A DNA stretch of 64,000 nucleotides from Lysobacter arseniciresistens ZS79 (GTDB lineage: Bacteria; Pseudomonadota; Gammaproteobacteria; Xanthomonadales; Xanthomonadaceae), in the NCBI RefSeq assembly GCF_000768335.1, contig NZ_AVPT01000004.1, positions 1 through 64,000 of the forward strand, read 5' to 3'. Of this stretch, positions 558-12,689 are shown in pieces. The stretch's first letter is position 1, and every line of letters begins with the position of its first letter. The notes under the pieces were generated by a model, which was not told the origin of the DNA, did not search any database, and saw nothing but the letters and a program-made list of their open reading frames with translations. Made by a program: the position numbers and the translations under genes.

Positions 558-2624
558 TCAGCGGACCGGCATGCCGGCCTGCGCGGCGGTATCGGCGTCG
601 AGCAGCGCCAGCGCGCCGGCATCGAAACCGGCCGACAGGATCATCCCCTCGCTCAGGCCGAAGCGCATCTTGCGCGGGGCGAGGTTGGCGATGAACACGA
701 CGTTGCGGCCGACCAGCTTTTCCGGCTCCGGGTAGGACGCGCGGATGCCGGAGAAGATCTGCCGCTGGCCGAGTTCGCCGGCGTCGAGCTGGAAACGCAG
801 CAGCTTGTCCGAGCCGTCCACGAACGCGCATTCGAGCACCTTGCCGATGCGCAAGTCGAGCTTGGCGAAGTCGTCGATGCCGATGGTGGCGGGTGCCTCG
901 TCACCGCTCTTAGCCGGTGCGGTGGCCGGCGCGGCCTGAGCCGTTCCCGCAGGGGCGGAGCTGTCGGTCGACTTCATGGATTCCTTGCTTGCTTCGGTCA
1001 TGGCTTCGATCAGTTTCGGGTCGATACGGGTGAACAGCGGGGTGTAGGTGGCGATGCGGTGGGCGGTCAGCGGCGCGGCGATCGCGTCCCACCCGGCCAC
1101 CGGGGCATCGAGGAAGGCCTCGGCCTGCGCGGTCACGCGCGGCAGCACCGGCTTGAGCGCGGTGTTGAGCACGCGGAACAGGTTCAGCGCCTGGGTGCAG
1201 ACCGCCTGCAGCTGCGCGTCGGCGCCGTCCTGCTTGGCGATCACCCACGGCTTGTGCTCGTCGATGTAGCGGTTGGCCTCGTCCGCCAGCGCCATCGTCA
1301 GGCGCAGCGCGGCGGCAGCCTCGTTGCGGGCGTAGGCGTCGGCGATCGGCTGCAGTTGCTCGACGAAGCGCGCGTACATCGCCGGGTCCGGCAGCGCGTC
1401 GGCCAGGCGGCCGTCGAAGCGCTTGGCGATGAAACCCGCGCTGCGGCTGGCGAGGTTGACGAACTTGCCGACCAGGTCGGAGTTCACCCGGGCGACGAAG
1501 TCGGAAAGGTTGAGGTCGACGTCGTCGACGCCGCCGGCGGTCTTGGTGGCGAAGTAGTAGCGCAGCGCCTCGGGGTCGAGGCCGGCGTCGAGGTAGGTGC
1601 GCGCCATCACGAAGGTGCCGCGCGACTTCGACATCTTGGCGCCGTCCACGGTCAGGTAGCCGTTGACGTGCAGCCGGGTCGGCGCGCGGAAGCCGGCGCC
1701 GTGCAGCACCGCCGGCCAGAACAGGCCGTGGAAGTTGACGATGTCCTTGCCGATGAAGTGGTGCAGCTCGGCCTGGCTGTCACGCGCGAGGTAGCTGAAG
1801 AAGTCCAGACCCTCGCGCTCGCACAGCGCCTGGAAGCTCGACAGGTAACCGATCGGCGCGTCGATCCACACGTACAGGTACTTGCCCGGGTGTCCCGGGA
1901 TCTGGAAGCCGAAGTACGGCGCGTCGCGCGAGATGTCCCAGGCGCGCAGGCCGCCCTCGGCGTCCAGCCATTCGCGCAGCTTGGCCTTGACCCCCGGTGC
2001 GGCGACGTCGCCCGCCAGCCACTCGCGCAGGAACGCCTCGAAGTCGCCGACCTCGAAGAAGAAGTGCTCCGACTCGCGCAGTTCCGGCGTCGCGCCGCTG
2101 ACCACCGAGCGCGGCTCCTTCAGTTCGGTCGGGGCGTAGGTTGCGCCGCAGTGCTCGCAGTTGTCGCCGTACTGGTCGGGCGTGCCGCAGTTGGGGCAGG
2201 TGCCCTTGACGAAGCGGTCCGGCAGGAACATGCCCTTGACCGGGTCGTACAGCTGCGCGACCGAGCGGCGCTTGATGTGGCCGTTGTTGTCGAGCTTGGC
2301 GTAGATCGCCTCGGTCAGAGCCCTGTTGCGCGGCGAGTTGGTGGAGTCGTAGTGGTCGAAGGCGACGCCGAAGTCGGCGAAGTCGCGCTCGTGGCTGGCC
2401 TGGATGCCGGCGATGTAGGCCTCCGGGGTCATCCCGGCCTTCTCGGCGGCGAGCATGATCGGGGTGCCGTGGGTGTCGTCGGCGCAGACGAAATGCGCGG
2501 TGTGGCCGGACAGGCGCTGCGCCCGCGCGAAGATGTCGCCCTGGATGTAGCCGACCAGGTGACCCAGGTGCAGCGGGCCGTTGGCGTAGGGCAGGGCGCA
2601 GGTGACGACGAGCTCGCGGGACAT
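558..2624 (-). CDS. metG: Methionyl-tRNA synthetase
   Basis: Cytoplasmic class I enzyme that charges tRNA-Met and tRNA-fMet with methionine. The 688-residue protein shows the HIGH signature as HLGH (19-22), a zinc knuckle with cysteines at about 143, 146, 156 and 159, and the KMSKS loop at 330-334. An Ala/Pro-rich linker then leads to a C-terminal OB-fold tRNA-binding domain (about the last 110 residues, [12 protein letters not shown] region), the usual dimeric long form. The ATG at 2624 gives the conserved [17 protein letters not shown] start; upstream codons in the open frame look non-coding and no good ribosome site is seen. It is divergent from mrp, the pairing also known from E. coli and Pseudomonas, with one small gene in between. 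Confidence 0.97.
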
Positions 2625-2761: not shown

Positions 2762-3202
2762 TTACTTGCGCACCCAGGTCTGGGTCTTGCCCAGCAGCGA
2801 GAAGCCCATGAAGCCGCGGACCTCGAGCTTGGCGCCACCTTCGACCGGCCGCATCTTCACCGAGTAGACCTTGCCGCTGGCGGGGTCCAGGATCTTGCCG
2901 CCCTCCCAGGTGTCGCCGTCGCGGGTCACGCCCCACAGGATCACCATGCCCTCGATCGGCTGGTTCTTGCGGTCGCCGTCGCACTCCTTGCACACCGGGT
3001 TGTCGCCCTGGGTCGACTGCAGAACCTCGACCACGCGGCCGGCGAGGCTGCCGTTGCGGGTCTCGTAGATCTCGACGGTGGACTTGGGCTGGTTGGTCTT
3101 GTCGTCGATCGTGGTCCAGGTGCCGACCGGCGTCTCCTGCGCGAACACGGAGAACGACAGCGCCAGCAGCGGCAGCGCGAGCAGGGTGGTCAGTTTGCGC
3201 AT
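2762..3202 (-). CDS. DUF2147 secreted protein
   Basis: A 146-residue protein with a clear Sec signal peptide (MRKL, then a hydrophobic core, cleavage after SVFAQ at about residue 22), so periplasmic or outer-membrane associated. The mature part, with [10 protein letters not shown] near the start, a CKEC pair and [13 protein letters not shown], matches the DUF2147 family of small beta-rich proteins. Some members are described as fatty-acid-binding-like; the function is unknown. A very good ribosome site (GGAGGAATC) precedes the ATG at 3202, and a terminator follows the gene. It is a single-gene unit divergent from mrp. Confidence 0.85.
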
Positions 3203-3405: not shown

Positions 3406-4470
3406 GTGAGCGACCCGCTGCAGAACCGAATCGAAGCCCTTTCCATTCCCGGCACGGCCATCGCCGTCAGCGAAGCCGCGGGGCGCGTCCGGGTGGCGCG
3501 TGCCGACGGCGCGGCGGCGGTCTCGATCGAACTGGGCATGCCGGTCGCGGGGCTGCAGGCCGATCTGCAGGAAGTGGTGTCGGCGCTGGTGGCGCAGGAG
3601 GGCTTGTCACTGTCGCGGCTGGAGCTCGCCCAGCGGATCACCGCGCACGCGGTCCAGCCCAAGCTGTCGCCGCTGCAGAAGGTGCGCAACATCATCGCGG
3701 TCGGTTCCGGCAAGGGCGGGGTCGGGAAGTCGACCACCGCGGTCAACCTCGCCCTGGCGCTTGCGGCCGACGGCGCGCGGGTGGGCGTGCTGGACGCGGA
3801 CGTGTATGGCCCGAGCGTGCCGATGATGCTCGGTATCAGCGGCCGCCCTGACAGCCCCGACGGCAAGAGCATCGAGCCGATGCGCGCCCACGGCGTGGAG
3901 GCGATGTCGATCGGCATGCTGGTCGAACAGGACACGCCGATGATCTGGCGCGGCCCGATGGCCACCGGCGCGCTGACCCAGTTGCTCAACGACACGCGCT
4001 GGGGCGACCTCGACTACCTCGTCGTCGACCTGCCGCCCGGCACCGGCGACATCCAGTTGACCCTTGCGCAGAAGATCCCGGTGGCCGGCGCGATCATCGT
4101 CACCACCCCGCAGGACGTGGCGACGCTGGACGCGAAGAAGGCGCTGAAGATGTTCGAGAAGGTCGAGGTGCCGGTGCTCGGCCTGGTCGAGAACATGGCG
4201 GTGCACGTCTGCAGCAACTGCGGCCACGCCGAGCACGTGTTCGGCGAAGGCGGCGGCCAGCGCATGTCCACCCAGTACGGCGTGCCGCTGCTGGGCAGCC
4301 TGCCGCTGGAGCTGGCGATCCGCGAGCAGGGCGACGCCGGCGTGCCGGTGGTGGCGGCGCAGCCGGACTCCGCGGCGGCACAGGCCTACCGGACGGCCGC
4401 GCGGCAGGTGGCGGCGGCGTTGGCGACCCGTCCCCGGGTGACGCCGTCGATATCGGCGTCGCTGCTGTAG
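3406..4470 (+). CDS. mrp: Mrp/ApbC family Fe-S cluster carrier ATPase
   Basis: A 354-residue P-loop ATPase that delivers Fe-S clusters to apoproteins in the cytoplasm. The N-terminal 90 residues form the MIP18/DUF59-like domain. The deviant Walker A GSGKGGVGKST is at 100-110, the Mrp signature DADVYGPSVP follows, and the cluster-binding CxxC is at C269/C272. The GTG start at 3406 has an excellent ribosome site (AAGGAGG, six bases away); the open frame extends further upstream without support. It is divergent from metG, an arrangement conserved in gammaproteobacteria. In Pseudomonas dcd follows directly, as I recall; here two accessory genes intervene. Confidence 0.95.
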   Translation: MSDPLQNRIEALSIPGTAIAVSEAAGRVRVARADGAAAVSIELGMPVAGLQADLQEVVSALVAQEGLSLSRLELAQRITAHAVQPKLSPLQKVRNIIAVGSGKGGVGKSTTAVNLALALAADGARVGVLDADVYGPSVPMMLGISGRPDSPDGKSIEPMRAHGVEAMSIGMLVEQDTPMIWRGPMATGALTQLLNDTRWGDLDYLVVDLPPGTGDIQLTLAQKIPVAGAIIVTTPQDVATLDAKKALKMFEKVEVPVLGLVENMAVHVCSNCGHAEHVFGEGGGQRMSTQYGVPLLGSLPLELAIREQGDAGVPVVAAQPDSAAAQAYRTAARQVAAALATRPRVTPSISASLL

Positions 4471-4520: not shown

Positions 4521-6095
4521 ATGAATGAGCCTGCTCACCAGTATGCGCGAGCGGTGGATGCCCTGAATCGCGGCGACTGGCGCAGCGCCCAGGTGCGGGC
4601 GGAAGAGTTGTTGTCCGTTGCCTCCGGCCACGCCGGCGTCCAGTTCGTCGCCGGCGTGGCGGCCCTCCACCTGCAACAGCTGCCGAGGGCGCTGCGCCAT
4701 CTCGAAGCATCGGTCAGGCTCAATCCCGCCCGCGCGGACTACGCGGCGCAATGGGCGCGCGCGCTGGCGTCCGCGGCGATGACCCGCGAAGCGCTCGAGG
4801 TTGCGCGACGGGCGGCGGATCGGAACCCGCGGGACACGATGACCCTCGACACGCTGGGCGTGGTGTTCACCCTCTGCAATGCCCACGAGGACGCGGTGCC
4901 GGTCTTCCGGCGGGCGTCGGCGATGAACCCCGACGTTGCGAGCTACCACTTCAATCTCGCAACCTCGCTGAGCATCATCAACCGAATGGAAGAGGCCGAG
5001 CAGGAGTACGAGGCCTGCCTGGGCCGCGATCCGAAGTACTGGAAGGCGCACCTTGCGCTCGCCCAACTGCGCCGCCAGAGCGAGGCATCCAACCATCTCG
5101 ATCGCCTGCGGGCGTTGCACGCGGATGTGGGCGGCGACCACCAGGGCCGGATGTACGTCAACCTTGCATTGGCCAAGGAGCTGGAGGATATCGGCGAGTA
5201 CCGGCAATCGCTGGAGCATCTCCGGGAAGGGAAACGTGCCGGGAGAGAGGGGCGCGGCTACAGCTTCGAGCGCGATCAGGCGCTGTTCGACGCGCTGGTT
5301 GACGCATTCCCGGTCCCGATCGATCCGGTTGAAGGACATGACAGCCAGGAGCCGATCTTCGTGATCGGCATGCCGCGAACCGGTACGACCCTGGTGGATC
5401 GGATACTGAGCAGCCATCCGGACGTGCAGAGCGCCGGGGAGTTGCCTAACTTCGGCTTCCTGCTGAAGCGGATGTCGGGCAGTCGGACACCGGCCCTGCT
5501 GGATGCCGACACGCTCGCATCCGCGCAGGGCCTCGATCATGCGGCGCTTGGTCGTGCGTACGTGGACAGCACCCGGCCAGGTACCGGCCAGCGCCGGCAC
5601 TTCGTCGACAAATTGCCCCACAACTTTCTGTATGCCGGACACATTGCCCGGGCCCTGCCGCGGGCACGGATCGTCTGTCTGCGTCGCAATCCGGTCGACA
5701 CCTGCCTCAGCAATTTCCGGCAGCTGTTCGCGCAGGGGTCCCAGCACTACGACTATTCGTTCGATCTCCTGGATACGGGCCGTTACTTCCTCCAGTTCGA
5801 GCGCCTGATGGCGCACTGGAAGCGAGTGCTGCCCGGCCGCATCCTCGAGGTGGATTACGAAGCCCTTGTCGAGCAGCAGGAGCCCGAGACCCGACGGTTG
5901 CTGGAGTTCTGCGGGCTGCAGTGGAACGACGCATGCCTGGCGTTTGAACGCAACGCGGCGCCGGTGGCCACAGCCAGCCTTGCCCAGGTTCGGTCGCCGT
6001 TGTATCGGACGGCGGTCGGGCGCTGGAAGCGTCACGAAGACCAGCTGGGAGACCTGCTGGGACTGCTTGAGCAGGGCGGCGCAGCCATCCGGTGA
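4521..6095 (+). CDS. TPR-repeat sulfotransferase
   Basis: A 524-residue protein of two parts. Residues 1 to about 265 are tetratricopeptide repeats (several ALxHLEASVRLNP-like helices). The rest is a PAPS-dependent sulfotransferase fold: the 5'-phosphosulfate loop reads GMPRTGTT at 283-290, and the 3'-phosphate-binding segment begins near R383 (CLRRNPVDTCLSNF). No signal peptide is seen, so it is probably cytoplasmic. The substrate is unknown; TPRs suggest a protein or peptide partner. It faces a TonB-dependent receptor gene across a shared terminator, a pairing that suggests a functional link (inference). The start at ATG 4521 was chosen over a GTG 12 bases upstream. Confidence 0.85.
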   Translation: MNEPAHQYARAVDALNRGDWRSAQVRAEELLSVASGHAGVQFVAGVAALHLQQLPRALRHLEASVRLNPARADYAAQWARALASAAMTREALEVARRAADRNPRDTMTLDTLGVVFTLCNAHEDAVPVFRRASAMNPDVASYHFNLATSLSIINRMEEAEQEYEACLGRDPKYWKAHLALAQLRRQSEASNHLDRLRALHADVGGDHQGRMYVNLALAKELEDIGEYRQSLEHLREGKRAGREGRGYSFERDQALFDALVDAFPVPIDPVEGHDSQEPIFVIGMPRTGTTLVDRILSSHPDVQSAGELPNFGFLLKRMSGSRTPALLDADTLASAQGLDHAALGRAYVDSTRPGTGQRRHFVDKLPHNFLYAGHIARALPRARIVCLRRNPVDTCLSNFRQLFAQGSQHYDYSFDLLDTGRYFLQFERLMAHWKRVLPGRILEVDYEALVEQQEPETRRLLEFCGLQWNDACLAFERNAAPVATASLAQVRSPLYRTAVGRWKRHEDQLGDLLGLLEQGGAAIR

Positions 6096-6120
6096 CCGGG
6101 CCCGCGGGGGCCGCGCATGG

Positions 6121-6150
6121 AAAGGCCCCGCCGAGGCGGGGCCTTTATTT
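6121..6150. terminator. Bidirectional terminator between convergent genes
   Basis: An 11-12-bp stem (AAAGGCCCCGCC with GGCGGGGCCTTT) with a minimal loop is flanked by T-rich sequence on one side and A residues on the other. It lies 25 bases after each convergent stop codon and should end both the sulfotransferase and the receptor transcripts. Confidence 0.85.
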
Positions 6151-6174
6151 GGCAACGTCAGGTCGATCCGGCGA

Positions 6175-9063
6175 TCACTTGCCGAAGTTGTAACGCGCCT
6201 CCACATACATCGAACGACCGTACACGCTGTAGTTCCCGCTGTTGTACGGAGCTCCGCTCGTGCCCGGGAACGTGGCGTCGTAGGGAGGCATCTCGTCGGT
6301 GAGGTTGTTCACCAGGAACGACAACTCCAGCGTGTCGAGCGGGCGATAGCTGACACTGGCATTGAAGGTCGTGGTGGAGTCGAGCTTGGCTGCGCCTTCC
6401 GCGTCGTAGCCCGAGGTGCTGACCAGGGCGCGGTAGTTGGGCGTCTCACCGATCCAGTTGGCATACAGCGTGGTCGACCACTTGTCGCGGTTCCACGATG
6501 CCGACAACGTGGCCCGGTCCGCCGGGTCGCCGCTGTAGTACGGATCGTCGAGGTAGTCCAGCACCGGGTCACCTTCATACACGATGCGGTCATGCTTCAG
6601 GATGCGGGTGTAGTTGCCGTCGAAGGAGAAGGTGCCAGCACCGTCGGTCGGCATCACGTAGTTGAAGGCTGCGGTTGCGGCCTGCATCTCGCGCTTGGAC
6701 ACGTTGATCTTCGGGGTGAAGATCTCGACGACGTAGTTGTTGCTGTCCTGACGGGTGACCTGGGACAGCGTCTGCACGCAGGTCGGCGAGTTGATGTCGT
6801 CGATGCCCGCGCGGCAGCGGTAGTCCTGCATCATCAGCGCATCAGTGCTCTGCTGCGTGACTTCGTTGTCGATCTCCCAGCTGTAGTAGTCGGCCGTGAA
6901 GGACAGGCGGTTGGTCGGCGCCCAGACCACGCCGGCGTTCCACACGTCGGCGTTGATCGGCTCCAGGTCCACGTTGCCCGCCTGGGTACCGAACACCTGC
7001 CGGCTGGAGAACTGCGACGGGCACGCGTCGATCTGCGCCGGATCGGCCGGGTCATACCCGGCTTCACTGCACAGGTAGTAGTCGGTCACGAACGTGTAGA
7101 AGCCGCTGCGTCCCTGGAACTGGTCGGACAGCGTCGGCGCGCGGAACGCGGTGCCGTACTTGCCTCGCAGCATCAGGCTCTCGAGCGGACGGAACTCGAC
7201 ACCCAGGCTGTAGGTCGACTTGCTCAGTGTGCTGCCGCCGTCGGGCGAGAACGAGTCATAGCGTCCCGACCCGGTGACCGTCAGCATGTCGACGATCGGC
7301 ATGCGCAGCTCGGCGGTCGCCGCATAGCGGTCGCGCTCGCCACCGCCGGCCACCGCCGTGGTGCCCCAGATCGAACCATCGAGATAGCGGGGATCCGGAT
7401 CGTAGTTCCAGGTCTGCCGACCGCTTTCCAGTGCGATAGCGACACCGGCGTCGCCGCCGGGCAGCGAGAACAGCGAACTGTTGGTCACCTGTGCCCGGAC
7501 CATCGCATCGGTGGTCTTGCTGCGACTGGTCGCATAGCCGGTGAAGCTGGCGAAGTCTTCCGCGGAGATGGGCTGGTAGAAGGCACCATAATCCGGGGTA
7601 AATACCGGATAAGCGCCGAAGTACGGATCCCAACCCTGTTGCGGACCCAGTACCCGGTCCTGGAAGTAGTCGTTGATGGCATCGGCCCAGCGGACAAAAC
7701 CCTTCTCTTCCAGCTCGTAGCGCGTGTAGGTGCCACCGAAGTCGTAACTCCAGTCCGAGTCCCCGAAGTAGCCGTTGACGCCCAGCGCCGTCTGGTATGC
7801 GTCGCTCTGGTCGAAGCTCATCGAGTTGCGGAAACCCTCCGGCCCCATGTCCTCGGGGGCGAAGGCGCGCTGCAGGTTGATCAGGCCGTCCACGTCGGGG
7901 TCGTAGTAGTAACCCCACTTCACACCGGTGCCCCACCAGGTGTAGTTGGAACCGATGTGATAGCCGACCTCCTCGGTGCTGTAGAGAAGATCGGCATACA
8001 GCTGTGCGTTGTCGTTGAAGTCCCAGGTCACGTGGCCGACGAACTGGGCGGCTTCCTTCTCGTTGAGGATGGTGCGGTAGCCGGGCGTGAAGAACGAACC
8101 GCAGTATTCACCGGAACCAGGACGCACCTGCGGACCTTCAGTGCCGCCGAAGAAGTGGTCGACGTTGGAACACTCCGCGGCTTCCGGGGGCAGGTCGACG
8201 TAACCGAAGTTGCCGAAGCGGAACTGGCTGATGCCCTTGTAGCCGTACACCAGGAAGTCGCGGCTCGCGATCGGGGGCGAGGCGCCATTGGTATTGAACT
8301 GCCTTGTGAGGTCGCGCTGGTAGGCCCAGATCGGGTCGCGCTGCTCGAACTGCACGCCCATCAGGCCGTTCAGGCGCCCACCAATGGCCGAGAAACCATC
8401 GGCGATGCTGGCCCGGAAGCTCGAGCCGCCGCCATCCGAGTACCAGCCGCCGCGGACGCCAATGCTCGTGCCATCGGTGCGCTTCTTGAGCTTGATGTTG
8501 ATGACGCCGGCGATCGCGTCCGAACCGTAAAGCGAGGATTGACCACCCGGCAGGATCTCGATCGTTTCGACCAGGTCGATCGGGATGTTGCTGATGTTGT
8601 TGAACGTGTCGCTGCCGTTGTACAGGGCCGGGAAGTTGGCCATCGGGCGGCCGTCGATCAGGTACTTGGTGTAGCCCGGATCAAGGCCGAACATGCCGAT
8701 GGTCTCGGCGCCCTGGGTGAACGACGCGGAGCTCTGCGCGCCCTGGGTACCGCCGGTGGAGACCGCGTTTTCCTGCAGGACTTCGGCGACCGAGGTGAAG
8801 CCGCGGGAACGAATGTCCTCCGCGGTGATGGTCATGACGGGCGAGAAGGTCTCGATTTCCGTCTGCGGGATCAGGGAGCCGGTCACCAGGACCCGGTCAA
8901 GATTGGTGGCGCGCGACTCCGCCGTCTGGGAGGTGCTGTCCTCCGCTTCCGTACTCGTATCGGTGTCCTGTGCCATCACCCCGGTGGACACCGGTATCAC
9001 CAAAGCCGCAATCAGGGCTGCACTCAAACGGCTGCGCTGCAGCCGGGAACTCTTAACTGCCAT
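6175..9063 (-). CDS. TonB-dependent outer-membrane receptor
   Basis: A 962-residue protein with a signal peptide (positive MAVKSSRLQRSR, hydrophobic stretch, cleavage near VMAQ at about 32). A linker with a possible TonB box (DRVLVTGSL, about 57-65) follows, then a plug domain (TITAEDIRSRGFTSVAEVLQ onward, with the RIDGRPM-like IDGRPMANFP and IEILPGGQSSLYGSDAIAGV segments). The long beta-barrel ends in a terminal strand with ARYNF close to the C terminus. It imports an unknown ligand across the outer membrane using TonB-ExbBD energy. No regulator or periplasmic permease is adjacent; the only partner is the convergent TPR-sulfotransferase. An ATG at 9063 fits the signal peptide; the upstream 13 codons are unlikely to be translated. 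Confidence 0.93.
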   Translation of the reverse strand: MAVKSSRLQRSRLSAALIAALVIPVSTGVMAQDTDTSTEAEDSTSQTAESRATNLDRVLVTGSLIPQTEIETFSPVMTITAEDIRSRGFTSVAEVLQENAVSTGGTQGAQSSASFTQGAETIGMFGLDPGYTKYLIDGRPMANFPALYNGSDTFNNISNIPIDLVETIEILPGGQSSLYGSDAIAGVINIKLKKRTDGTSIGVRGGWYSDGGGSSFRASIADGFSAIGGRLNGLMGVQFEQRDPIWAYQRDLTRQFNTNGASPPIASRDFLVYGYKGISQFRFGNFGYVDLPPEAAECSNVDHFFGGTEGPQVRPGSGEYCGSFFTPGYRTILNEKEAAQFVGHVTWDFNDNAQLYADLLYSTEEVGYHIGSNYTWWGTGVKWGYYYDPDVDGLINLQRAFAPEDMGPEGFRNSMSFDQSDAYQTALGVNGYFGDSDWSYDFGGTYTRYELEEKGFVRWADAINDYFQDRVLGPQQGWDPYFGAYPVFTPDYGAFYQPISAEDFASFTGYATSRSKTTDAMVRAQVTNSSLFSLPGGDAGVAIALESGRQTWNYDPDPRYLDGSIWGTTAVAGGGERDRYAATAELRMPIVDMLTVTGSGRYDSFSPDGGSTLSKSTYSLGVEFRPLESLMLRGKYGTAFRAPTLSDQFQGRSGFYTFVTDYYLCSEAGYDPADPAQIDACPSQFSSRQVFGTQAGNVDLEPINADVWNAGVVWAPTNRLSFTADYYSWEIDNEVTQQSTDALMMQDYRCRAGIDDINSPTCVQTLSQVTRQDSNNYVVEIFTPKINVSKREMQAATAAFNYVMPTDGAGTFSFDGNYTRILKHDRIVYEGDPVLDYLDDPYYSGDPADRATLSASWNRDKWSTTLYANWIGETPNYRALVSTSGYDAEGAAKLDSTTTFNASVSYRPLDTLELSFLVNNLTDEMPPYDATFPGTSGAPYNSGNYSVYGRSMYVEARYNFGK

Positions 9064-9417
9064 TCTGGATCCCCAAAGTTGAGCGTGCGCGTGTATCGGC
9101 ATTCCGTTGCCAGCGACGCACGAAATGTCAAGTCTCCCTCCGGACGGCTCGACCTTAACATGGCATTAATGAGGTTGTCACAGTTCCGCTGGAGGCCTTG
9201 ATTCCAGAGGCTTTCAGCTGGGTCGGGGCGTGTTCTGACACGGCCCTTCCCAAGGCCTGGCGACGCGGGAAGGCCCGTGCGCCAGGCGGGTGTCCCGGGT
9301 GCGATCGGGTTGATCTGTTTCAGGTGGGTCAGGGTGCCGTTGCGGGCCGCATTCCCTACAATCGCGGGTCCTGCCAGCGGCGCGGATCCGTGCCGGGCAC
9401 AGCCTTCCGGGAGCCGC
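9064..9417. other. Divergent intergenic region, receptor and dcd
   Basis: About 350 bases without a gene. On the minus strand a perfect TTGACA (9131-9126) could be the -35 of the receptor promoter, but the spaced -10 is poor (AACGGA). Around 9243-9275 there are matching CCTTCCC and GGGAAGG arms that could form a small hairpin. On the plus side only a candidate dcd -10 (9357-9362) is seen. No Fur box or other named operator could be recognised. Confidence 0.4.
9357..9362 (+). promoter_or_regulatory. Candidate -10 for dcd
   Basis: TACAAT followed by CGCGGG, 56 bases before the dcd start. No convincing -35. It belongs to the set of -10 elements with GC-rich discriminators seen across this window. 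Confidence 0.35.
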
Positions 9418-10005
9418 ATGAGCATCAAATCCGACCGCTGGATCCGTCGCATGGCCGAGCAGCACGGCATGATCGAGCCGTACGAGCCGGGTCAGGTGAA
9501 GTTCGCCGACAAGGGCGGGGCCGAGGGGCAGCGGATCGTCAGTTACGGCACGTCCAGCTACGGTTACGACGTGCGGTGCTCGCGCGAGTTCAAGGTGTTC
9601 ACCAACATCAACTCGACGATCGTCGACCCCAAGCACTTCGACCCGGGAAGCTTCGTCGACGTCGAGGCGGACGAGTGCATCATCCCGCCGAACTCGTTCG
9701 CGCTGGCGCGCACGGTGGAGTATTTCCGGATCCCGCGCGACACGCTGGTGGTGTGCCTGGGCAAGAGCACCTACGCGCGCTGCGGGATCATCGTCAACGT
9801 GACGCCGCTGGAGCCGGAGTGGGAGGGCCACGTGACGCTGGAGTTCTCCAACACCACGCCGCTGCCGGCGCGCATCTACGCCAACGAGGGCGTGGCGCAG
9901 ATGCTGTTCTTCCAGGCCGCGGCCGACGATGTCTGCGAGACGTCCTACAAGGACCGCGGCGGCAAGTACCAGGGCCAGCGTGGCGTGACCTTGCCGCGGA
10001 CCTGA
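9418..10005 (+). CDS. dcd: dCTP deaminase
   Basis: Converts dCTP to dUTP, the main route to dUMP for thymidylate synthesis in many bacteria; a cytoplasmic homotrimer. The 195 residues match the usual family length (about 190). Recognisable parts are [13 protein letters not shown] at the start, [20 protein letters not shown], the catalytic loop [17 protein letters not shown] with its glutamate, and the C-terminal [11 protein letters not shown] that closes over the nucleotide. The start at ATG 9418 follows GGGAG. It is convergent with the HIT gene, with 35 bases between stops. Confidence 0.96.
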
Positions 10006-11315: not shown

Positions 11316-12689
11316 ATGTCCATCCAGTCCGCCCCGTCCAGCAATCCCAAAGTCGGCTTCGTCAGCCTCGGCTGCCCCAAGGCGCTGGTCGACTCCGAGC
11401 GCATCCTTACCCAGCTGCGGGTCGAGGGCTACGACCTGGTACCGACCTACGACGACGCCGACGTGGTGGTGGTCAACACCTGCGGCTTCATCGACTCGGC
11501 GGTGGCCGAATCGCTCGACGCGATCGGCGAGGCGATGGCCGAGAACGGCAAGGTCATCGTGACCGGCTGCCTGGGCAAGCGCGAGGAGGTGATCCGCGAG
11601 GCGCACCCGGGCGTGCTGTCGATCAGCGGGCCGCAGGACTACGAGAGCGTGCTGGGCGCGGTGCACAAGGCGCTGCCGCCCAAGCACGATCCGTTCACCA
11701 GTCTCGTCCCGCGTCGGCCTCTCGAGGCCGACACAGACACGGTCGGCATCAAGCTGACGCCGAAGCACTACGCCTACCTGAAGATTTCAGAGGGCTGCAA
11801 CCACCGCTGCAGCTTCTGCATCATCCCGTCGATGCGTGGCGACCTGGTCTCGCGTCCGGTCGACCAGGTCCTGCGCGAGGCCGAGAAGCTCGCGCTGAAC
11901 GGCGTGCGCGAACTGCTGGTGATCTCGCAGGACACCTCGGCCTACGGCGTCGACCTGCGCTACGCCGAGCGCGAGTGGCGCGGCAAGGCGTACCAGACCC
12001 GCATGAAGGCGCTGTGCGAGGGCCTCGGCGAGCTCGGCCTGTGGACGCGGTTGCACTACGTCTACCCGTACCCGCACGTGGACGACGTCATCCCGCTGAT
12101 GGCGGAAGGGAAGATCCTTCCGTACCTCGACATCCCGTTCCAGCACGCCAGCCCGCGCGTGCTGAAGCTGATGAAACGCCCCGGTGCGGTCGACAAGACG
12201 CTGGAGCGCATCCAGCGCTGGCGCGCGATCGCGCCCGACATCACCATCCGCTCGACCTTCATCGTCGGCTTCCCGGGCGAGACCGAGGCGGAGTTCGAGG
12301 AGTTGCTCGACTTCCTCGACGAGGCGCAGCTCGACCGTGTCGGTGCGTTCGCCTATTCGCCGGTGGAGGGCGCGAAGGCCAACGAGCTGCCCGATCCGGT
12401 GCCGGAGGAGGTCAAGCAGGAGCGGCTGGCGCGCTTCATGGAGCGGCAGGCGGCGATCAGCGAGGCCAAGCTCGAAGCCAAGGTCGGCACGGTGCAGCGC
12501 TGCATCGTCGACGCGGTCGACGGCGAGCTGGCGATCGCGCGGTCGATGGCGGATGCGCCGGAGATCGACGGCCTGGTGCAGATCCAGAACGGCTATTTCG
12601 CAGGCCTGAAGCCGGGCGATTTCTGCGACGTCGAGATCATGGGCAGCGACGAGCACGACCTGTTCGGCGAGGTGGTGTTCGGCGACTAG
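11316..12689 (+). CDS. rimO: Ribosomal protein S12 methylthiotransferase
   Basis: A radical-SAM enzyme that adds a methylthio group to the aspartate of ribosomal protein S12. The 457 residues show an N-terminal UPF0004 domain with cluster cysteines ([29 protein letters not shown]). The radical-SAM CxxxCxxC is at C161, C165 and C168 ([13 protein letters not shown]). A C-terminal TRAM domain binds the substrate. It needs two 4Fe-4S clusters. The ATG at 11316 keeps a short non-conserved N terminus before [11 protein letters not shown]. It is convergent with greB across a paired palindromic repeat. Confidence 0.96.

Follow-up and report, generated by a model that had tools for sequence, protein, structure and literature searches.

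Recurrent pairing of a TPR-sulfotransferase with TonB-dependent receptors, and receptor loop tyrosines as candidate sulfation sites

Introduction

In Lysobacter arseniciresistens ZS79, a gene for a sulfotransferase with a tetratricopeptide repeat (TPR) front half faces the gene for a large TonB-dependent receptor (TBDR). This arrangement raises the question of whether the two genes belong together and, if they do, what the enzyme sulfates. The window in which we studied them is a stretch of 64,000 nucleotides (contig NZ_AVPT01000004.1, positions 1 to 64,000).

According to the part of PMC9372746 that we consulted, bacterial protein-tyrosine sulfation has been described for RaxX, and genes for protein-tyrosine sulfotransferases (TPST) are called sparse in bacteria. 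The closest statement to our subject that we found is an unpublished observation, reported in the same part of that paper, that genes for extracytoplasmic proteins are often the neighbors of TPST genes in bacteria. The genomic logic is that of the window pair, but receptors, TPR enzymes and TBDRs are not mentioned in the passage. A full-text literature search, with papers judged mostly by title and the start of the abstract and with subscription papers and preprints outside its scope, returned no description of a TPR-sulfotransferase/TBDR pairing. PMC4110880 and PMC3071791, two papers that mention both, deal with polysaccharide genes, with RaxST and with xylan genes in the parts consulted.

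Results

A convergent pair between mrp and dcd

The first-pass annotation described a TPR-sulfotransferase and a TBDR that converge between mrp and dcd. Both genes were found at the positions given in Table 1, and the Pfam assignments agree. The mechanically called open reading frame (ORF) of the sulfotransferase opens at GTG 4509; the ATG at 4521 agrees with relatives. The two genes are separated by a gap of 79 bp, which contains an 11-bp GC hairpin (z-score of the region on folding, -2.4). This hairpin makes the shared terminator suggested by the first-pass annotation plausible, but a scan of the locus for consensus promoters and terminators listed none, and the hairpin was not among its calls.

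The composition of the pair differs from that of its flanks. GC3 is 0.81 for the sulfotransferase and 0.86 for the TBDR, compared to 0.94 to 0.95 for metG, mrp, dcd and a radical-SAM gene, and the GC content of the pair is 64 to 65%, compared to about 70%. These lower values fit an accessory origin. The earlier view of both genes as an accessory insertion therefore holds for their foreign-looking composition but not for the distribution of the receptor, which is common at this site across the family: in many family loci fetched, an orthologue of the TBDR adjoins the metG-mrp block, even in loci that lack the enzyme (e.g., L123, L124, L128, L131, L133 and L135 to L137). The gene order in the relatives L081 and L086 is metG, DUF2147 gene, sulfotransferase, TBDR, mrp, dcd. 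The window differs in having mrp between the DUF2147 gene and the pair, which reflects a local rearrangement.

The sulfotransferase is its own sole match in the window genome at an E value of 0.001. The same genome has 24 TBDR-barrel matches in 3.09 Mb, 23 of them above the cut-off. It also encodes an APS kinase, so PAPS synthesis is possible.

Table 1. Positions of the pair, of its candidate functional sites and of the neighboring genes in the window
Feature	Position (nt, unless aa)	Strand	Basis or remark
metG	558-2624	-	Pfam
DUF2147 gene	2762-3202	-	Pfam
mrp-type NTPase gene	3406-4470	+	Pfam
TPR-sulfotransferase, 524 aa	4521-6095	+	Pfam: TPR repeats and Sulfotransfer_3
N-terminal TPR helices of the sulfotransferase	about aa 4-262		Pfam and AF2 model
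TPST-like PAPS sulfotransferase domain	about aa 278-520		Pfam, AF2 model, PDB sequence and fold matches
5'-PAPS motif PRTGTT, aa 285-290	5373-5390	+	Conservation and TPST alignment
E307, aligned with second Glu of TPST CGEE	5439-5441	+	Invariant in 45 sequences
K364 (DKLP), aligned with TPST NKDP	5610-5612	+	Invariant in 45 sequences
R389, presumed 3'-phosphate-binding region	5685-5687	+	Invariant in 45 sequences; putative role
S397, with R389 in presumed 3'-phosphate-binding region	5709-5711	+	
11-bp GC hairpin, possible bidirectional terminator	6121-6131/6136-6146		Between the convergent genes; folding of the strand
TonB-dependent receptor (TBDR), 962 aa	6175-9063	-	Pfam plug and barrel; AF2 model
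Predicted extracellular loop L4, aa 459-507	7543-7689	-	DSSP of model; loop/turn assignment by reading
Y481 in DPYFGAYPVF, first candidate sulfation site	7621-7623	-	Codon confirmed; tree test
Y385 in GYYYDPDVD, loop L3, second candidate site	7909-7911	-	Column comparison of groups W and N
Y273, loop L2, tracks enzyme presence	8245-8247	-	Tree test
dcd	9418-10005	+	Pfam
Radical-SAM gene	11316-12689		Used in GC3 comparison

The enzyme resembles protein-tyrosine sulfotransferases

Pfam assigned the sulfotransferase to Sulfotransfer_3 (PF13469) with an E value of 3.2e-54 and 184.9 bits, above the cut-off of 27, and the AF2 model had a mean pLDDT of 94.5. Full-length profile matches were mostly TPR proteins. 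The catalytic half was closest by sequence to protein-tyrosine sulfotransferases, with 8w5z first (E 1.9e-11) and TPST2 and TPST1 following. The top Foldseek matches of the model were 8w5z and 3ap1, and identity to TPST in the structure match was 21 to 25%.

Conservation was assessed in 45 sequences. Within the 5'-PAPS motif, P285, R286 and G288 were invariant, and T289 and T290 were present in at least 90% of the sequences. The three residues that mark the TPST active site, R286, E307 and K364, were all invariant. We take the TPST residues aligned with them to be the 5'-PSB Arg, the catalytic Glu and the active-site Lys, respectively; the catalytic Glu would be the second Glu of CGEE, opposite E307. 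Together, the likeness in sequence and in modeled fold suggests that the TPR-sulfotransferase is a TPST-like enzyme, with sulfate transfer to protein tyrosine as its predicted reaction.

No signal peptide was apparent by eye on the sulfotransferase, and PAPS is cytoplasmic; the enzyme therefore probably acts before export. RaxST is likewise described as acting before export in the consulted part of PMC9372746.

Enzyme and receptor are paired more often than expected by chance

In a survey of the xanthomonad family, the enzyme was matched at 1e-30 in 180 of 247 genomes (6 candidates scored per genome) and the receptor at 1e-100 in 155 of 247 (3 scored per genome). We took 40 family loci around the best enzyme places; four places in the Xanthomonas-like genus g6 (G138, G156, G237 and G065) were passed over and fetched later. 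A TBDR lay directly beside the enzyme in 24 of the 40 loci, with one small called ORF between them in L099 and L117. Nine loci had the TBDR 3 to 6.2 kb away, past an rnfB-like/metG/DUF2147 block or a larger insert. The other seven showed neither arrangement; one of these reaches a contig end, and one has a TBDR past an S9 peptidase gene. More distant pairs, at about 35 to 41% identity, were present in 13 loci (L141 to L153), all convergent and at other sites, with glycyl-tRNA synthetase and TamA genes or a ThiC gene as neighbors. Pairs in L114, L116 and L117 lay close to an Hsp33 gene. Within the family, the pair occupies at least four genomic sites.

Several family loci depart from the simple pair. 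L111 carries two tandem sulfotransferase copies beside one receptor (6138-9375). In L088, L091, L098, L119 and L132, the enzyme or the receptor is accompanied by a further TBDR (about 30% identical), by an S9 peptidase gene or by both, and M13 peptidases occur near other family pairs. In L112, L113 and L115, which belong to the genus of the window, a related enzyme (52 to 55%) sits between genes for fructose-bisphosphatase and a biopterin-dependent hydroxylase, with no TBDR near.

We then turned to a cross-species scan of 84,980 species genomes, which confirmed 492 relatives; the best 80 loci among them were analyzed. A TBDR lay within 1.1 kb of the enzyme in 56 of these 80 loci, a set that is skewed to relatives of the query, an enzyme alignment mixing paired and unpaired enzymes. 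The custom profile used to locate TBDRs missed at least one Oar-like receptor. Hosts of paired loci included xanthomonads, Nevskiaceae, alteromonads, Haliea types, sphingomonads, Phenylobacterium and others, and convergent, tandem and divergent orientations were all seen.

An even draw of 398 Pseudomonadota genomes is the fairer sample. Here the enzyme was found at 1e-80 in 151 genomes (3 candidates scored per genome). At the 40 best-scoring enzyme places outside the window genome, a TBDR lay within 1.5 kb in 22 cases, and in 15 of the first 19; these loci extend about 5 kb per side, and several stop at contig ends. The chance expectation of adjacency is about 5 to 9% (about 5.5% in the window genome, from its TBDR matches and size), and at an assumed 9% the binomial p for 22 of 40 is 2e-13. 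Two further rows of the draw had the enzyme beside an Oar-like TBDR (row 17), which the profile had missed, and beside an autotransporter.

The partner receptors were mainly of two kinds, families a and b. Their blastp similarity was nearly nil (one marginal 43-bit match), and their profiles aligned in the plug only (hhalign; family-b profile of 3 rows). Queried from the receptor side, family b gave 13 matches in 12 of the 398 genomes (2 scored per genome). Twelve of the 13 were within 1.4 kb of an enzyme, and the 13th was 12.7 kb away; all 12 genomes also carry the enzyme (2 to 3 candidates scored per genome).

Enzymes with no near TBDR made up 24 of the 80 loci at 1.1 kb and 18 of the 40 places at 1.5 kb; L112, L113, L115 and L118 are examples. 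The 13 genomes behind 14 loci with no adjacent TBDR were searched for a family-b receptor. Three sphingomonads carry one, at 73 to 75% identity, on the same contig and 12.6 to 12.9 kb from the enzyme; of the remaining genomes, two had a distant family-b match and eight had none. Linkage at 12.6 to 12.9 kb is kept in four sphingomonad-type genomes.

Adjacency is thus above chance from the enzyme side and from the receptor side. The neighborhood survey that the first-pass annotation called for, with chance-level pairing as the outcome that would speak against a module, gave the opposite result in the 80 loci, in the 40 places and in the receptor query.

The two genes share their history

Distances between sulfotransferases and between TBDRs remained correlated when neighboring genes were taken into account. 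The partial r was 0.36 given metG (n=18), 0.89 given dcd (n=12) and 0.88 given mrp (n=13), with a Mantel p of 0.0002 in each case. This correlation shows a shared history, including shared transfer; by itself it is not coevolution. It contradicts the independent inheritance against which the module idea had been set, and that idea now has behind it pairing above chance in both directions and shared divergence beyond the neighbor genes.

Could the two genes be linked but share no function, through tolerant insertion sites or joint transfer? The composition of the window pair and the few favored sites in relatives would fit such an origin. The partners, however, are dissimilar TBDRs, found in several orders, in three orientations and at different sites; the long-range linkage in the four sphingomonad-type genomes has been kept; and receptor residues track the enzyme, as described below. 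We consider this explanation very improbable.

No widely recurring third gene of at least 80 aa

Within 6.5 kb of the enzyme, no third gene of at least 80 aa recurred widely in the 80 loci, in 77 of which the gene caller recovered the enzyme itself. TBDRs formed families present in 50 and 14 of the 80 loci, and the next families were present in at most 9. Genes of at least 80 aa for biosynthesis, export or a precursor were likewise not widely recurrent with the pair in this set. A precursor peptide gene in the window was considered and rejected, as the gap of 79 bp leaves no room for it. Small genes beside unpaired enzymes in L118, L157 and L160 were also considered as precursors; they belong to the GFA and ExbD families instead.

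Some less frequent neighbors were seen. An ExbD/TolR gene stands head to head with an unpaired TPR-sulfotransferase in L118 (7962-8324), L157 (7942-8343) and L160 (7646-8047), assigned by Pfam for L160 and by membership of the same cluster for the other two. ExbD/TolR is part of the machinery that energizes TBDRs. Where the profile found no TBDR, other outer-membrane barrels could lie beside the TPR-sulfotransferase, namely, autotransporters in L320 (6785-9433) and L167 (2299-4014). The neighbor in L354 (1852-4815) is an Oar-like TBDR, and in L230 (7931-8596) it is a protein that matches a porin model below the cut-off.

FA_hydroxylase-family genes are found close to the enzyme in 9 of the 80 loci, all sphingomonad (e.g., L163, 3764-4648, where the gene sits between TBDR and enzyme, and L188, 8069-8962); they would suit a lipid or small-molecule substrate. 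Family-b pairs are often near amidohydrolase, amidase/allophanate-hydrolase or hydantoinase-like genes (L200, L201, L204, L206, L210, L212, L214, L215, L217, L235 and others). The first two types were identified by Pfam for one member each and occur in 7 of the 80 loci each; the hydantoinase-like genes were recognized by eye. Such neighbors hint that a ligand could be an amide or a peptide.

These genes bear on the main rival to receptor sulfation. According to it, the enzyme sulfates a small peptide, lipid or other metabolite in the cytoplasm, and the product leaves the cell and is taken up again in the manner of a siderophore; or else it sulfates an imported compound. The loop tyrosines described below would then co-vary as ligand contacts. 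The FA_hydroxylase-type, amidohydrolase and amidase/allophanate-hydrolase genes would find a place in this scheme, as would the S9 and M13 peptidases near several pairs. It is harder to reconcile with the lack of widely recurring biosynthetic, export or precursor genes of at least 80 aa and the narrow gap, with TPST-like catalytic residues and a TPR superhelix, which suit a polypeptide, and with partners whose receptor barrels are dissimilar. We regard sulfation of a ligand as unlikely, though it deserves serious consideration.

Receptor tyrosines in the outer loops track the enzyme

The window receptor has the Plug (PF07715) and barrel (PF00593) domains of a TBDR by Pfam. Its AF2 model had a pLDDT of 71.8, with 22 barrel strands as read from the model. 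Naming it as a siderophore, B12 or heme TBDR by NCBIfam was rejected, the best match being 77.8 bits against a cut-off of 316.85. For one family-b receptor, no NCBIfam ligand name was above the cut-off among the best 25 matches inspected.

We divided the family-a receptors into those with a linked enzyme (W, 32), those from genomes in which no TPR-sulfotransferase was detected (N, 16; up to 55 candidates scored per genome in calling absence) and the remainder (O, 19). The last group comes mostly from genomes with only other TPR-sulfotransferases and also holds two receptors that are second copies and one with its enzyme at another place in the genome. In the comparison of W with N, Y385 headed the 490 columns, being present in 31 of 32 and 1 of 16 receptors, respectively.

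Since group N is dominated by one genus, a tree was built. The tree test covered the 120 of 480 columns with the largest frequency difference, with N and O together as the contrast and G059, the genome with the enzyme elsewhere, moved to W. Y481 ranked first of the 120 columns (27 of 33, compared to 2 of 34), with 6.2 independent pairs for the association and 0.5 against. Its sign test gave a median p of 0.03, a nominal and uncorrected value obtained before the relabeling of G059 and for a column picked after scanning many. Y273 ranked second, Y208 fifth, Y248 twelfth and Y385 sixteenth.

Neither leading position follows the enzyme in every case. Y481 is missing from the receptors of 6 of the 33 enzyme-bearing genomes, which have Leu (five) or Met (one) instead. 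Four of the six belong to g6, in which three other enzyme-bearing members keep the tyrosine. Y385 as the sole site was rejected, as it is not significant alone on the tree. It is kept in 15 of the 19 O receptors, mostly from genomes with only other TPR-sulfotransferases, and four g6 genomes with no close enzyme keep Y385 and lack Y481.

The enzyme-tracking tyrosines map to the long loops L1 to L4 of the receptor model or to their margins; we take these loops as extracellular, and most of the top 20 tracking columns are in them as read from the model. Outer-loop tyrosines are thus associated with the enzyme. This evidence suggests, short of proof, that the TBDR itself is the enzyme's target. 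Besides tyrosines, the tracking columns cover many other loop positions and, in the plug, positions 106, 114 and 121, as a change of ligand would give, and in this respect they favor the ligand-sulfation alternative.

The loop location also raises the prospect that the enzyme serves chiefly to shut out TBDR-dependent phages or bacteriocins, as a resistance device and not as a part of uptake. TBDRs are common phage and bacteriocin receptors. The patchy presence of the enzyme, which is absent from some receptor-bearing genomes, would agree with such a role. On the other hand, we noticed no defense gene among the recurrent neighbors in the 80 loci, and an enzyme present in all 12 family-b receptor genomes of the 398 drawn would be odd for an optional mask. 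Masking, which is a variant in effect of receptor sulfation, appears to us quite improbable as the main role.

A tyrosine-rich loop motif in paired receptors

Y481 lies in the context DPY[YF]GAYP. Family-b receptors mostly have an LDYGYEEFP-like segment at a loop, and other pairs have YYGDYPR or EYYGYPVY. A pattern chosen after the data were seen, Y..[YF]P, was present in 48 of 60 TBDRs adjacent to a sulfotransferase (58 from the 80 loci and 2 from plasmid records; some partial), compared to 1 of 27 TBDRs from three genomes that lack the sulfotransferase (30 control loci, 27 with a usable ORF, several of them partial at 399 to 577 aa). Among TBDRs more than 1.1 kb from the sulfotransferase, 3 of 16 had the pattern (L168, L190 and L238). 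These three are family-a or family-b members in loci with no nearer TBDR; several other TBDRs, 1.9 to 4.9 kb from the sulfotransferase, lack it. Within family a, it occurred in 25 of 32 W, 7 of 19 O and 3 of 16 N receptors.

The carriers are not independent, as 41 of the 48 belong to one homologous receptor family; no unpaired form of this 41-member family was found. The remaining 12 of the 60 adjacent TBDRs lack the pattern, and so do many pairs of more distant enzyme clades (e.g., rows 24 to 36 of the 40 places in the draw). The window receptor itself fails the strict form, its segment being DPYFGAYP, with Phe at the second place. A profile alignment of the two receptor families, examined for common descent of the motif, aligned only the plug.

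Discussion

Our computations show a conserved pairing of enzyme and receptor, shared divergence, a TPST-like sequence and fold, and an association of loop tyrosines with the enzyme. From here on we infer: the receptor as substrate, the tyrosine modified, the timing and the effect. We propose that the pair is a receptor-modification module, in which the enzyme sulfates tyrosines in the outer loops of the receptor before export, and we give this proposal about an even chance of being right. The TPR-sulfotransferase would be a cytoplasmic protein-tyrosine sulfotransferase whose TPR superhelix binds the neighboring TBDR while the receptor is still an unfolded precursor. Its TPST-like active site would transfer sulfate from PAPS to one or more TBDR tyrosines, with Y481 in loop L4 as the first candidate target, followed by Y385 and Y273. 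The sulfated precursor would then undergo Sec export and outer-membrane assembly. Sulfotyrosines lining the outer mouth of the receptor may alter the binding of its ligand, or of a phage or bacteriocin.

A broader proposal, which we advance tentatively and with somewhat less confidence, is that there exists a widespread, so far unrecognized class of bacterial outer-membrane receptors with sulfotyrosine in their extracellular loops, put in before export by an adjacent, dedicated TPR-TPST. TBDR families unlike one another would have been recruited independently as substrates, as would Oar-like receptors and autotransporters in places, and Y-x-x-[YF]-P, often preceded by Asp or Glu, may be the recognition site in several of them.

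Parts of this scheme have precedents. Animal TPST1 and TPST2 are not known to carry TPR repeats. Represented by PDB entries 3ap1, 5wri and 8w5z, they offer the closest catalytic domain, and R286, E307 and K364 align with their residues; they are Golgi-anchored (the part of PMC9372746 consulted) and share 21 to 25% identity with the window enzyme. O-GlcNAc transferase and SPINDLY fuse a TPR superhelix to a protein-modifying transferase, and the TPR half of the window enzyme matches both. These two enzymes, however, transfer sugar, whereas sulfate is predicted for the window enzyme, and their catalytic domain is not known to be related to its own. Autotransporter heptosyltransferases of the TibC/AAH type are cytoplasmic enzymes encoded beside an outer-membrane protein that is modified before export. 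Their way of working is similar to the one proposed here, but they glycosylate passenger domains and belong to another enzyme family.

The RaxST-RaxX system of Xanthomonas, as presented in the consulted parts of PMC6637879 and PMC9372746, has in common with the window pair a cytoplasmic bacterial TPST-like enzyme, PAPS and an export-bound protein substrate. That substrate, however, is a peptide of 60 residues that leaves the cell through a type I system, whereas the window pair has a TPR half, a TBDR partner and no peptide gene in the gap. A RaxX-type small precursor and a RaxAB-type exporter are both absent at the window locus, with its narrow gap and its mrp and dcd flanks, and no such gene of at least 80 aa recurred widely in the 80 loci.

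What is new here is the breadth of the pairing, the swapped receptor partners and the loop tyrosines as candidate sites. If the enzymes act on their receptors, Gram-negative bacteria would commonly use tyrosine sulfation to tune nutrient receptors, which form the surface of which phages, bacteriocins and siderophore-linked drugs take advantage. The annotation "tetratricopeptide repeat-containing sulfotransferase family protein" would, if this is true, gain a substrate.
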